Below are positions 12,132 through 17,807 of a stretch of DNA of 64,000 bases, piece after piece (position 1 is the first letter of the stretch; each line of letters opens with the position of its first letter). The position numbers and the translations under genes were made by a program. Source of the stretch: an uncultured Flavobacteriales bacterium. Lineage in GTDB: Bacteria > Bacteroidota > Bacteroidia > Flavobacteriales_D > Sanyastnellaceae. The notes under the pieces are model-generated. The model ran no database searches. It had not been told where the DNA came from and saw only the letters and a program-made list of their open reading frames with translations. The stretch covers positions 1 to 64,000 of the forward strand of contig CALGEI010000042.1 of the NCBI GenBank assembly GCA_937881575.1, in the 5' to 3' direction.

Positions 12132-14963
12132 ATGAAAGGACTGCGCTTCACCCCACTTCGTTCCGTTTTGAACGTTTTGCAATTCTTTGTACTTGTTAGC
12201 TTGTCGTTTGGAGCGTACGCTCAGGCAGGAACGGAGTATGTTACGAAGAATCTTGACGGTCTGGTTAATTGGACGGACGCAAGTACCTGGGTTGGCGACG
12301 TTGTTCCTCCAGATAGTTCGGATGTGACCATCACAGATTGCGATGTTACGTTAACGGGTGACATCAATGTAGGAAGTCTTACCTTGTCTAATGATGGTAC
12401 TTTGGTGACCGGCTCTCACACGATTACGGTGAATGATATCATCGGTGTGAATTTGGCCGCTTTTGAGTGCTCTGCCTGCACAGTCATCTTAAATTCGTCT
12501 GTTGCTCTTGCTGACAGTACTGGTGACCCCACAGTTGCAGGGTCTGCGGACATTCAGTTTTGGGATGTGATCATTCCCGCCGGTAAGTCCGTCGATTTTG
12601 GAGCAGGCGGTGTCAATGTGGCAGAGAGTTTTATCAAAAACTCTTTGAAACTAGAAGGGGGTGCTGTCGTCGTGAATCCGCCGTACTATGGTTACATTGG
12701 AGCTGGTGATGCTTATTTCACTGGAGGAACATTGATTTATGACGAAACGTACACGGTAGGAACGGAATGGTCGGCTGTTGGTTCTACGAATGCCCTGAAA
12801 ACAGATGTCCTCGCAACGGGCAAGGGCGTTCCTGTTAAAGTCGAAATTGTTGAAGGTGCGACGCTTTCATTTGGGGCAACTGCGGAAAGCTATTCTTGTC
12901 TTGATGATTTGACCGTGGATGGCAGTGGAGTGCTGAACATGTCGAGCATGACAGGAGATTTAACGGTCGGCGGTCACTTGAATGTTACTGGAGCCTCTGG
13001 GCAGTTGAACTTGGCCACCATGGAAGGTGATCTCATCGTGAATGGCAATGCCACGATTGGAGGGGTGTCCGGACAATCGGTCACATTGAATCTTCCAACA
13101 TCGGATGCAACGCAATATGGAGCTTTGGATGTTCAGGGTGATTTGACCCTGGGGCACAATGGCGGCAATGCTTTGACAATTAACGGTGACGAAGGCAATT
13201 TGCGGGTCGCTGGAGACTTCACTCTGAACACAACAAGTGGTTCTGAGTTCGGTATGGTAAAATTTGACGGCTCCATTGCACAGACCTTCTCTGGCAACAA
13301 GATGACGGTAGATTCATTGGTTGTTGCAAACACATTGAATGACGTTTTGACCGATTCAGATGTGATTTTCACGGACAGTGTTGACATTGCACCCGGAGGT
13401 GTTTTCAATCCAATTGAAGGTTCGGTTCATGTAGGCGGCTCCTTCGCTATGAGATCTGATGCCACCGGGACGGCGCGTATTGCGACTCTCGCAAACAGTG
13501 GCGCAACCTCGGATGTATCGGGTGGCGACATCACCTTTGAGCGTTTCATCTCAACTTTATCTGGCATGAGCTGGCTCAATATTGGGAATTATGTAACGGG
13601 CAGTCACACGGTGAATGATTTGAAGAGCCAGTTCACAGGGTTCAGCCTATTCTTCAAGTACATCGAGACGAATTTCTTCACGAACAATAATGCCAGTTCT
13701 GCCGGGACAGGGCCGTTCCAAATCCCATCGAATGGTGACGCGTTAGAGGAAAGTGATTTCGGCTATTTGGTCCTCCGAGCTCAGTCTGCAGACGAGACTT
13801 TATCCTTGAAAGGGGGTTACAACACGGCACAAGTGGATTTGACGTTGTCTCTTTCGACTCCGGTCTACGGTAGTGGCGGATATCACTTGTTGACGAACCC
13901 ATTTCCATCGCCGATTGACGGAAATGAATTCCTCGCAGACAATGGTCTCGCTTACTACTACATGGTGGATAACAGCACAGGCAATACGTTGGTTTCCGGA
14001 ACGGATGCACCTGCAACAATCGATATTGGTCAATCATTCTGGGTCCAGACGGATGCCAACAACAAGGCCGTATCGTTTCAATTGGACGATATAACACACG
14101 GGTCGAATTCATTTGTGCGCGACGCGGACATGTACGAAGAGGGCATGGTTGGAATTCGTGCATCACAGACCGATGGACGTTTTGGTCATTCATTCATTCA
14201 GTTCCATGAGTTGAGTACTCCCGAGCATGAATATGAATTTGATGCCATGCACCGAGCAGGTAGTTCTTTGAGTCCAGACGTATACACGCGCTCTGAAGGA
14301 AATGTAGCGGATTTGGCAATCAACTCGATCGGTTCAATGGAGAATACAGAATCCATCGCTTTGATTGTGCGAAGTGGGTCAGAAGGGACGGTGAGTCTCC
14401 AATTGGATGATCTTTTCGAAATGCCTGAAGGTTTGTGTGCGCTCATTGAGGATATGGAAACAGGTGATATTGCTGCTTTAGGTGGGGAGGCGATGGTGAT
14501 AGAATTGGAGCCGGCCACATTGTATGAAGACCGATTCCAACTGACATTTATGAGCACTCCGGTGTTCGAATCTTCTGTTTCTTACTGCGGCGGCGGTGTC
14601 ATCCACTTCAATGGCGAGAACAATGAATCTTGGAATATATCTTGGTCGGATGAATCAGGCGATCTGTCGGGAGAAGGTTGTGTTACAGGGTTGGATGTTG
14701 GAAATTATGTTGTAACAGGTGCTGACCCTGTATCGCAGTGTGTTGTGCATTCAAACGTTGCAATAGACGCGGTTTGTTTAGGCGATTTCAATATCAACGG
14801 AACCCGAGACATCGTTGATTTGTTAACCTTATTGGTTGAACTTCAACCGGCTGCGGGTGCGACGGATGGTGCATATTTGCAAACTGATTGTGATTGTGAC
14901 GGCGCCATGACGACTTCAGATTTGTTGTTGTTCTTGCCGTACTTTGGTGTTGCTTGTGAGTGA
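12132..14963 (+). CDS. Large secreted beta-repeat protein with C-terminal dockerin-like module
   Basis: 943 residues with a signal peptide (V-L-V-S-L-S-F-G-A-Y-A-Q-A). Residues ~30-110 resemble the G8-like opening of Bacteroidota surface proteins (N-W-T-D-A-S-T-W, then D-V-T-I-T-D-C-D-V-T-L). A long parallel-beta-type region with repeated G-D-L-T-V-G-G-H-L, G-D-L-I-V-N-G-N-A and G-D-F-T-L-N follows to ~450. A conserved segment with L-L-T-N-P-F-P-S-P-I-D-G-N-E-F is at ~585. Unlike neighbouring exported proteins it has no YPNP-type T9SS domain. It ends in two EF-hand-like loops (D-F-N-I-N-G-T-R-D-I-V-D and D-C-D-C-D-G-A-M-T-T-S-D), each followed by L-L-x-[LF]-L. The small Cys-rich gene 29 bases downstream is probably in the same transcript. 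Confidence 0.8.
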   Translation: MKGLRFTPLRSVLNVLQFFVLVSLSFGAYAQAGTEYVTKNLDGLVNWTDASTWVGDVVPPDSSDVTITDCDVTLTGDINVGSLTLSNDGTLVTGSHTITVNDIIGVNLAAFECSACTVILNSSVALADSTGDPTVAGSADIQFWDVIIPAGKSVDFGAGGVNVAESFIKNSLKLEGGAVVVNPPYYGYIGAGDAYFTGGTLIYDETYTVGTEWSAVGSTNALKTDVLATGKGVPVKVEIVEGATLSFGATAESYSCLDDLTVDGSGVLNMSSMTGDLTVGGHLNVTGASGQLNLATMEGDLIVNGNATIGGVSGQSVTLNLPTSDATQYGALDVQGDLTLGHNGGNALTINGDEGNLRVAGDFTLNTTSGSEFGMVKFDGSIAQTFSGNKMTVDSLVVANTLNDVLTDSDVIFTDSVDIAPGGVFNPIEGSVHVGGSFAMRSDATGTARIATLANSGATSDVSGGDITFERFISTLSGMSWLNIGNYVTGSHTVNDLKSQFTGFSLFFKYIETNFFTNNNASSAGTGPFQIPSNGDALEESDFGYLVLRAQSADETLSLKGGYNTAQVDLTLSLSTPVYGSGGYHLLTNPFPSPIDGNEFLADNGLAYYYMVDNSTGNTLVSGTDAPATIDIGQSFWVQTDANNKAVSFQLDDITHGSNSFVRDADMYEEGMVGIRASQTDGRFGHSFIQFHELSTPEHEYEFDAMHRAGSSLSPDVYTRSEGNVADLAINSIGSMENTESIALIVRSGSEGTVSLQLDDLFEMPEGLCALIEDMETGDIAALGGEAMVIELEPATLYEDRFQLTFMSTPVFESSVSYCGGGVIHFNGENNESWNISWSDESGDLSGEGCVTGLDVGNYVVTGADPVSQCVVHSNVAIDAVCLGDFNINGTRDIVDLLTLLVELQPAAGATDGAYLQTDCDCDGAMTTSDLLLFLPYFGVACE
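14781..14960 (+). other. Dockerin/F-hand-like module (coding segment)
   Basis: Encodes two calcium-loop-like motifs with the dockerin spacing D-x-N-x-N-G-x5-D and D-x-D-x-D-G-x5-D, each followed by a hydrophobic helix (D-L-L-T-L-L, D-L-L-L-F-L). It occupies the position where a T9SS domain would be expected. Confidence 0.6.
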
Positions 14964-14992
14964 TCTGATTCTTAGGATAAACTGTTGAAAGA

Positions 14993-15346
14993 ATGAAAGC
15001 GTATTTAAATTTTGTGGTTTTGGGGATTTTCTTGACTGTAGCATCCCAAGGTTTCACACAACCATGCCCAGGAGGGTATACACCATCGGGTAATGCAGTA
15101 ACAGATTGTGGTGGCGATCTCACTCCATGTTGTCACATTTATAATGCATGCAACGGTCCTTACTCAGGGTGCAATAACTTTGACACGGGGTGTGATGGTT
15201 GTGACCAAACAACAGGTTGTGCCCTGTCATGTACCCCCATTGACAGTGGTGTGATGTTCTTGCTGCTAGGCGGAGGATTGTTTGGAGCAGTGATGCTGCA
15301 ACGTCGCAAGGAGTTGGAGCTGGTGATGGAGAGAGCGAACAGCTAA
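14993..15346 (+). CDS. Small Cys-rich secreted protein with PID-type C-terminal sorting tail
   Basis: 117 residues: signal peptide (1-22), then a Cys-rich region with about 11 cysteines between residues 25 and 80 (C-C-H-I-Y-N-A-C, G-C-N-N-F-D-T-G-C-D-G-C). The tail has P-I-D-S-G at 82-86, one hydrophobic helix (87-102, with L-L-G-G-G-L-F-G) and a basic stop R-R-K at 104-106. A P-I-D-x-G / helix / Arg-rich tail resembles the PID-CTERM sorting tail seen in Bacteroidota, thought to be handled by exosortase-like enzymes. No such enzyme is encoded here. Alternatively it is a simple type I membrane protein. It follows the 943-residue protein by 29 bases and ends at a strong terminator. Confidence 0.75.
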   Translation: MKAYLNFVVLGIFLTVASQGFTQPCPGGYTPSGNAVTDCGGDLTPCCHIYNACNGPYSGCNNFDTGCDGCDQTTGCALSCTPIDSGVMFLLLGGGLFGAVMLQRRKELELVMERANS

Positions 15347-15362
15347 TCCGAAACATCCCAAG

Positions 15363-15392
15363 AAAAAAAGGACCTGCGAAGGTCCTTTTTTT
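15363..15392. terminator. Symmetric (bidirectional) intrinsic terminator
   Basis: A-tract plus GGACC, loop TGCGAA, then GGTCC plus T-tract: a perfect 12-bp stem when the A/T runs are included. It closes the 12132/14993 transcription unit and could also stop leftward transcription. Confidence 0.92.
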
Positions 15393-15746: not shown

Positions 15747-17807
15747 TCAGCACTCATCTCCAAACATCGCCAAGAACATGAGGATGTCGGTAACGCCGAC
15801 AGAACCGTCGCCGTTGATGTCCGCGGCTGAGCAATTCGCGGTGCAACCAAAGTAACCGAGTAAGATCAACAGGTCTGAAATCTCAACGGTCCCGTTGTTG
15901 TTGACGTCTTCAGGACAGCTCAAGGCATTGCCATCGCAATCGAAGCCTTGCTCTTGATAGGTGCAATTGCCCTCGTCCGTAGCATCCGCGTTGTAATTGC
16001 AGGCCAAAGCGTCTTGGCAGCCTGTGACTTCGTCACCGTCGCACACCCCATCGCCGTCAGCGTCACCGTCGACGATGGAACCAGAGCCATCGGTCTCACC
16101 GGAACACGTTTCGCAGCCCGTAGCCAAGAAGCAGGAGTTGTCATCGTTTGTAGCAGCAACATTGAAGTTACAGGCCGTTGTATCCATGCAGCCCTCCACA
16201 TCTTCTCCAGGCAATCCGAGGCAGAAATTGGTCAAGCTGAGCGTGGCATCCCAGGTCCCGGAAGATGTTGTTGAGCTGTAACCATTGACGACTTCCAAAG
16301 TCCATACTCCCGCACCGGTCAAGCCGAATGAATTGAGGTTGACACTATGGGTATAGGTTCCTTCAGCACCCACGTTCCAGTCGCCAGGCCAATCACTCGC
16401 GATGGTGTAACCCAAGGTCAGGTCATACCCTCCGATTTCAATGCACGATCCGTTCGGATCACAGATTCCAATCAGAAGATCACCGGCCCAACTCGATCCC
16501 GCAGAGGCGGAATACGCCACGCTAACGTCCAATTGATCGAGTCCAGTGCTGCTCGTCGCCTCCATTGTAAACGTTTCACTGGAAGTGCCGGTGAGGTTGT
16601 TGACGGCAAAAGCCCAATCGCTGGTGCAACTGCACGGAACGCCGTCCTGCGGCATAATACAAGACCCATCGTCCTCCGTAGCATCGGCGTCGTAATTGCA
16701 CGCTTCCGAATCGGTACAGCCCTGACAACTGAAATCGCAGCTGCCGTCGTCCTCAGTGGCTGCGCTATCGTAATTGCAGGCGGTAGCATCTGTGCAGCCA
16801 CATCCTATCGTACACGCAGGAGCACATCCGTCTGAAGTCGTCAAGCTCGCCCGGAACCCGCCGGGAGCAAACAACGCTTGCATGCGCGTTTTCTGGCCCG
16901 CGGTGAACAGGTTCATGCACGCATCGTCCGAATAGTCCATGTAGTTCTGTACCATGTCCGTGCTGCTGCAACTCACGTGACCCGTAGCGCAACCGAAATT
17001 TGAAGCATCGGAATTCGGCGTGTCCGCTACCTGATCGTCCTGGTTGCAGTTTCCATCCCCCCAGATGTGATAGAGATTCAACCAGTGGCCCACTTCGTGC
17101 GTGGCCGTTCGACCGAGGTTAAACGGAGCGGTCGCGGTCCCGACGTCACCAACATACCGGTAGTCACAGACTACGCCATCGGTTGACGCGGGTCCCCCCG
17201 GAAATTGCGCATAGCCTAAAATTCCCCCTCCGACATTGCAAACCCAAAAATTCAAATACGACCCCGTTGGCCAAGCATCCGAGCCACCTGAACTCGAGAA
17301 CTTCACATTGTCGGATGTTCCGAACGAAGAGACAGAAGTAGAAACCCGCAGAATGCCGTCTGTTGGATTGCCTTGTGGGTCGTTGGTCGCCAAACAAAAC
17401 TCCACCTCTGAATCGGCTGCCTGCGACCATGTGTTGTCGGCGTCGCTGTTGAGGCGTCGGAAGTCGTCATTCAGAATTTGCAGTTGCGACAGAATTTGAG
17501 CATCGCTAATGTTTTGGGTAGCGTTGGCATAAACCACATGGAATACCACCGGAATGGTCACAACCGTGCTGGCTTGATTTGAACGTTGTTCGCCCGACTG
17601 AGATTCCCAATGCTGCGTTTGTTGCTCAATCCGCGAACGCATTTCTGAGAATTTCGTTCCTCCCATCATTTCGACATACTTGTCGTGCGAAGCACAGGTA
17701 CGGTGCGCTGGCACCCCCTGCGCATCGGCAGAATTTGGAGCCATATTCTGAGCAGAACAAATACCTGCAATCAAACAAAAAGCGAAAAGGAAATGGAAGT
17801 GGCGCAT
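15747..17807 (-). CDS. Secreted M43 (cytophagalysin/pappalysin) metalloprotease with ACN repeats, P-like domain and dockerin-like tail
   Basis: 686 residues from ATG 17807, which puts the signal peptide (F-H-F-L-F-A-F-C-L-I-A-G-I-C-S-A-Q) first; an ATG at 17834 adds nine residues. The protease domain (~80-325) has the zinc motif H-E-V-G-H-W-L-N-L-Y-H and a Met-turn (N-Y-M-D-Y-S). Two Cys repeats (T-A-C-N-Y-D...D-D-G-S-C) follow at ~336-383, then a proprotein-convertase-P-like beta domain (~396-529: G-D-L-L-I-G-I-C-D-P, G-V-W-T-L-E-V-V-N). Two more ACN repeats with a TSP3-like D-A-D-G-D-G-V-C-D-G come next. Two dockerin-type loops (D-V-N-N-N-G..., D-I-N-G-D-G...) end the protein. There is no T9SS YPNP domain. 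Probably an extracellular zinc protease. Confidence 0.88.
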   Translation of the reverse strand: MRHFHFLFAFCLIAGICSAQNMAPNSADAQGVPAHRTCASHDKYVEMMGGTKFSEMRSRIEQQTQHWESQSGEQRSNQASTVVTIPVVFHVVYANATQNISDAQILSQLQILNDDFRRLNSDADNTWSQAADSEVEFCLATNDPQGNPTDGILRVSTSVSSFGTSDNVKFSSSGGSDAWPTGSYLNFWVCNVGGGILGYAQFPGGPASTDGVVCDYRYVGDVGTATAPFNLGRTATHEVGHWLNLYHIWGDGNCNQDDQVADTPNSDASNFGCATGHVSCSSTDMVQNYMDYSDDACMNLFTAGQKTRMQALFAPGGFRASLTTSDGCAPACTIGCGCTDATACNYDSAATEDDGSCDFSCQGCTDSEACNYDADATEDDGSCIMPQDGVPCSCTSDWAFAVNNLTGTSSETFTMEATSSTGLDQLDVSVAYSASAGSSWAGDLLIGICDPNGSCIEIGGYDLTLGYTIASDWPGDWNVGAEGTYTHSVNLNSFGLTGAGVWTLEVVNGYSSTTSSGTWDATLSLTNFCLGLPGEDVEGCMDTTACNFNVAATNDDNSCFLATGCETCSGETDGSGSIVDGDADGDGVCDGDEVTGCQDALACNYNADATDEGNCTYQEQGFDCDGNALSCPEDVNNNGTVEISDLLILLGYFGCTANCSAADINGDGSVGVTDILMFLAMFGDEC

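Follow-up and report, generated by a model that had tools for sequence, protein, structure and literature searches.

What role does a small cysteine-rich protein with an exosortase-type tail play directly behind the gene of a giant dockerin-like protein, and does the genome hold an enzyme that could act on such a tail? This question is raised by a stretch of 64,000 nucleotides from an uncultured Flavobacteriales bacterium (hereafter the window), which belongs to contig C42 of a 2.6-Mb genome. An open reading frame of 117 residues was read there, with the C-terminal sequence ...CTPIDSGVMFLLLGGGLFGAVMLQRRKELELVMERANS. The proline of its PIDSG is encoded by codon 82, the stop codon ends at 15346, and the tail runs in the order CTPIDSG, hydrophobic helix and RRK. 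The two most hydrophobic 19-residue regions of the protein are a signal-peptide-like N-terminus and residues 83-103, so that, judged from hydropathy, an N-terminal export signal is probable. The small gene and its surroundings are laid out as follows.

12132-14963, forward strand: giant gene, 943 residues, with a hydrophobic start, a beta-helix-like N-terminal region and a dockerin-like end
14775-14957, forward strand: C-terminal, dockerin-like end of the giant, one among 38 such matches genome-wide
14964-14992, forward strand: gap of 29 bases between the giant and the small gene
14993-15346, forward strand: small Cys-rich protein gene, 117 residues, with exosortase-type tail
15059-15235, forward strand: Cys-rich core, residues 23-81, the probable mature part between two putative cleavage sites
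15236-15250, forward strand: P-I-D-S-G motif, residues 82-86
15251-15301, forward strand: hydrophobic helix, residues 87-103
15302-15310, forward strand: basic cluster R-R-K, residues 104-106
15363-15392, forward strand: terminator-like hairpin, 13 pairs and a T run

The earlier note had described a small Cys-rich protein with P-I-D-S-G, a single hydrophobic helix and RRK, whose gene follows the 943-residue gene by 29 bases and ends with it at one terminator. The reading frame and its hydropathy agree with the description and its coordinates, and the spacing and the hairpin with the arrangement. The hairpin just past the small gene is strong (-18 kcal/mol, z -4.8) and was absent from the list of a generic scan; based on the spacing and this terminator, the two genes are probably co-transcribed, with both ending at the one hairpin. 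A claim about the fold of the small protein was dropped, since its structure model was poor (mean pLDDT 57.8). Its Cys-rich core recurs with 46% identity at G000:C68:2970-3182 (L005), at the start of a long reading frame that has no PID tail.

An exosortase-like enzyme, on which the earlier note had made its reading depend, was found in the same genome. One protein (P0003, contig C12) exceeds the cut-off of the Pfam family Exosortase_EpsH, with a second, weak match under the cut-off on contig C101, and P0003 also passes the NCBIfam model of exosortase X (NF046081, curated cut-off 170 bits) with 171.3 bits as a protein and 171 bits in the genome search. Its residues C97, R138 and H157, which we take to be catalytic from work on related enzymes, are invariant in nine aligned XrtX proteins. 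The neighbours of xrtX presumably correspond to ahcY and tsaB, which they resemble; the gene next to xrtX has a weak match of 19.8 bits to the XrtX-associated model (cut-off 75).

The tail itself matches the corresponding substrate model, PID_CTERM (NF046080, curated cut-off 26 bits), at 25.6 bits and E 4.6e-5 in the genome search, just under the cut-off, and the small protein alone scores 23.6 bits with E 3.2e-5; the match supports the exosortase-type tail that had been proposed. Orthologues score above 26 bits in G088 (29.3), G092 (28.6), G057 (28.5) and L042 (26.6), and below it in L039 (18.2), while none of 14 control genomes has a match above the cut-off and nine have weaker ones at E <= 10. 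The C-terminal P-I-D motif, hydrophobic helix and basic end that define PID_CTERM are all present in the small protein, and the tail is conserved throughout the genus, with P-I-D-[S/N]-G before the helix in most of its members. Other PID tails, for which the earlier note had proposed to search the genome, were found neither with NF046080 at E <= 10 nor with a tail profile built for the genus: the only further NF046080 match is weak and lies at the start rather than the end of another reading frame, and the genus profile added a single weak match (C42:51348, E 0.45). Since one tail per genome is the rule in this family, as described below, the missing second tail is no argument against the first.

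The rule emerges from 101 genomes drawn from the family. XrtX and PID occur together in 61 of them, XrtX only in 17, PID only in one and neither in 22 (Fisher p 1e-10, uncorrected for descent), and some of the XrtX-only genomes (G071, G083, G098, G094) do carry a PID-like gene below the threshold. Exactly one PID match was found in 60 of the 62 genomes with any. The xrtX gene lies directly downstream on the same strand of 55 of the 64 PID matches, with 30-195 bases between the matched parts; the nine others comprise seven in the window's genus, one in G087, shortly before the end of its contig, and a second, weak match in G082. Genome G053 carries XrtX and PID twice each (C10, C19), with each PID gene directly before an xrtX. 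XrtX and PID therefore resemble a one-enzyme, one-substrate system. A survey of XrtX loci, covering the 80 best of 128 and drawn entirely from metagenome-assembled Flavobacteriales and their relatives, gave the same picture: a PID-type tail upstream of xrtX was recognized at 50 loci by script and at six more by eye (L199, L219, L221, L224, L235, L246), including variants such as PIEDG and PISDG, which makes 56 of the 59 usable loci outside the window's genus and none of 20 within it. The exceptions outside the genus are L201, L204 and L207, and L239 is cut off.

Since the PID gene directly precedes xrtX in 55 of 64 cases and the exceptions are mostly from the window's genus, the small gene is most likely a displaced XrtX substrate. 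We hold with good confidence that its tail is an XrtX substrate tail, and it is very probable that the small gene is the displaced and only detectable substrate of the genome's XrtX, now standing second in a two-gene unit with the giant. In the window's genome the small gene lies on contig C42 and xrtX on C12, so the adjacency usual outside the genus, which is not part of the model definition, is not seen, and the link between the two leans on the family-wide association. The substrate has also changed in size. In many other genera the PID protein is tiny, with a signal peptide, about 25 Pro/Gly/Cys residues such as QPGPPSGPPCGGPFGPACPIDGG, and then the helix; a longer core with more Cys is found in the window's genus and in some genera close to it.

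As a displaced XrtX substrate, the small protein would be exported by Sec through its N-terminal signal, which would be cleaved, while its C-terminal helix and RRK would keep it in the inner membrane. XrtX would then cut near P-I-D-S-G, and the Cys-rich domain of about 60 residues would be transferred to an acceptor and left at the cell surface. On this view, the substrate gene of the window's genus parted from xrtX and became the second gene behind that of a large beta-helix, dockerin-like protein.

How stable this arrangement is was followed in 22 genomes of this marine genus, 17 of which have the small gene. The pairing that the earlier note expected in relatives is real and confined to the genus, and it is only partly kept there: the giant lies directly upstream in ten of the 17 (G000, G024, G057, G077, G083, G088, G092, G101, G105 and G108, with contig ends cutting the giant in G077 and the small gene in G105), is reduced to upstream remnants in three (G102, G103, G107), and is absent in four (G049, G071, G098, G104), of which G098 has giant-like paralogues elsewhere. 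The ten junctions that were read range from an overlap of a few bases to a spacing of 29 bases. A full giant orthologue was missing from all five genomes that lack the small gene (G004, G039, G064, G095, G106), where at best proteins or fragments with some portion of it in common were found. The genes on either side are separated by 79, 76 and 466 bases in G039, G064 and G095, respectively, so the absence of the small gene there is real; in G004 the contig breaks off, and a search for the anchor gene in G106 was negative. On a tree of four neighbouring genes, which leaves out G106 and pieces with little sequence and has some weak nodes, the losses are scattered over several lineages.

Two further observations come from the same genomes. 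G101, which was counted once as a genome, has a second pair of giant and small gene on contig C66, whose giant and metalloprotease best match another clade of the genus, so C66 may be a stray contig, or the pair may have been transferred. G039, G064 and G095 retain XrtX without the small gene, and no other tail was detected in them, so XrtX may have targets missed by these profiles; the enzyme in these three genomes either has an unrecognized target or is close to being lost.

The N-terminal region of the giant is predicted to be a beta-helix, and G8 matches occur in four of seven homologues. Its structure model has a mean pLDDT of 60.8, with a low-confidence C-terminal third that was folded only within the whole protein. 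With this model, Foldseek returned nothing at E <= 0.001 and VIA-align returned beta-helix proteins (best Z 13.6), a likeness of shape only; by sequence, no solved relative was found (best E 0.39). The label dockerin-like, given by the earlier note, is fair in that profile A4, which includes the ends of neighbouring metalloproteases as well as those of the giants, finds solved dockerins, but the end is degenerate and the giant alone (P0002) has no match to Pfam dockerin type I (PF00404) at E <= 10. Weak Dockerin_1 matches occur in three of seven giants (best E 0.029). Like cellulosomal dockerins, the end has two dockerin-like repeats; unlike them, its second loop is degenerate, its Pfam match is weak or missing, and 38 such C-terminal ends (E <= 0.01) occur in one genome, so it is no special mark of partnership. 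Within the window, dockerin-like ends lie at 14775-14957 on the forward strand and at 15750-15917 on the reverse strand, and that of the neighbouring M43 metalloprotease exceeds the Pfam cut-off. A T9SS type A sorting tail (TIGR04183) was not found in P0002 at E <= 10, while the neighbour gene at 8627-10693 matches this model with 42.9 bits.

Whether the giant matters to the small protein at all can be weighed from these data. It is possible, though rather doubtful, that the XrtX-anchored small protein is in addition a dedicated surface partner of the giant, as tether, chaperone or processing cofactor, and forms one unit with it. This is favoured by the close pairing in ten of the 17 genomes and by the lack of a full giant orthologue in the five that have no small gene, and further by correlated divergence: across eight taxa of 11 pairs (one per genome, both parts whole), distances of the small and giant proteins correlate with r 0.82, and with partial r 0.77 once the neighbour with the T9SS tail is taken into account (partial Mantel p 0.0036), although linkage by itself can yield such a correlation. 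Between G000 and G024 the small protein is 51% and the giant 52% identical, compared with 87-93% for the metalloprotease, a DoxX-like protein and a desaturase and 68-69% for two other neighbours; the two genes evolve faster than most of their neighbours. Furthermore, C-[T/A]-P-I-D-[S/N]-G is kept in all 13 visible tails beside a giant or its remnant and altered in all four without (Fisher p 0.0004, a post hoc contrast of related rows, in which the 13 tails come from 12 genomes with G101 entered twice and the G105 tail is not visible). The joint divergence and the tail change suggest a coupling of the two proteins; as the small gene usually lies behind the giant, both may be displayed together, and the small protein might possibly hold or process the giant, as the earlier note had proposed. 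Against a dedicated partner, the small gene persists without an intact giant in seven of the 17 genomes, the PID proteins of other genera adjoin xrtX instead of a giant of this kind, and dockerin-like ends such as that of the giant occur at 38 places in the genome.

Quite plausible, if still short of probable, is a role of the small protein in the envelope or in exopolysaccharide common to all XrtX genomes, with the giant as a neighbour without direct link. In all five stretches of other genera that were compared (L154-L158), a gene for 809-846 residues and, behind it, one for 212-214 residues run divergently from the xrtX unit; in L154, the one that was checked, the first encodes a Wzc-like polysaccharide tyrosine autokinase and the second a GT2 glycosyltransferase. 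The frequent loss of the giant while the small gene is kept fits such a role as well, but in the window's genus xrtX adjoins an ahcY-like and not a Wzc-like gene, and the correlated divergence and tail change also speak against it. A conserved gene of about 160 residues also follows the XrtX-associated gene in L154-L158 (L154:9102-9575), and that of L154 has no Pfam or NCBIfam family match. That the C-terminal helix is a plain, unprocessed membrane anchor is improbable: the score just under the NF046080 cut-off would allow it, and a literature search turned up no experimental work on XrtX, but P-I-D-[S/N]-G is conserved before the helix in most tails of the genus, and the family-wide linkage to xrtX would be unneeded for a mere anchor.

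The displaced XrtX substrate can be compared with known systems. The XrtX and PID_CTERM families are already in NCBIfam (NF046081, NF046080, NF046082), and the small gene and its XrtX share the tail type and enzyme family of this set; the window's genus differs in having the substrate gene apart from xrtX, with a longer Cys-rich core, and usually behind a giant gene. In the literature searched, no paper was found under the names XrtX or PID-CTERM. The PEP-CTERM/EpsH system, according to the passages of PMC1569441 that concern it, is alike in the signal peptide, short motif, helix and basic end, the multi-spanning enzyme and the link to exopolysaccharide genes, and differs in that PEP-CTERM proteins are usually many per genome, with a median of eight, whereas here there is one tail per genome and the motif is P-I-D. 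XrtF of Flavobacterium johnsoniae is likewise a Bacteroidota exosortase with a linked associated protein, and deletions in that system lowered colonisation and biofilm; in the relevant passages of that study, exosortase substrates are deferred to future work (PMC10936215). P0003 matches the XrtF model at 68.3 bits, below its cut-off of 90, and lies above that of XrtX.

The substrates of Bacteroidota exosortases have so far been predictions, and a pair of one enzyme and one tiny substrate comes close to the simplest case for locating the acceptor and the point of cleavage. The genus also offers a natural series, in which the substrate stands with the giant, the giant has decayed, the giant is gone, or the substrate is gone, and it can be set against genera whose substrate adjoins xrtX; a role in the display of a partner in trans is thereby open to testing. 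An unlikely idea is that the genus rewired a one-substrate exosortase: its only substrate would have moved out of the xrtX operon, would bear about 60 residues of Cys-rich domain where many other genera have a Pro/Gly/Cys peptide of roughly 25, and would now tether a specific giant beta-helix protein without an exosortase tail of its own. If both the rewiring and the tethering were true, exosortase sorting would display a second protein in trans.
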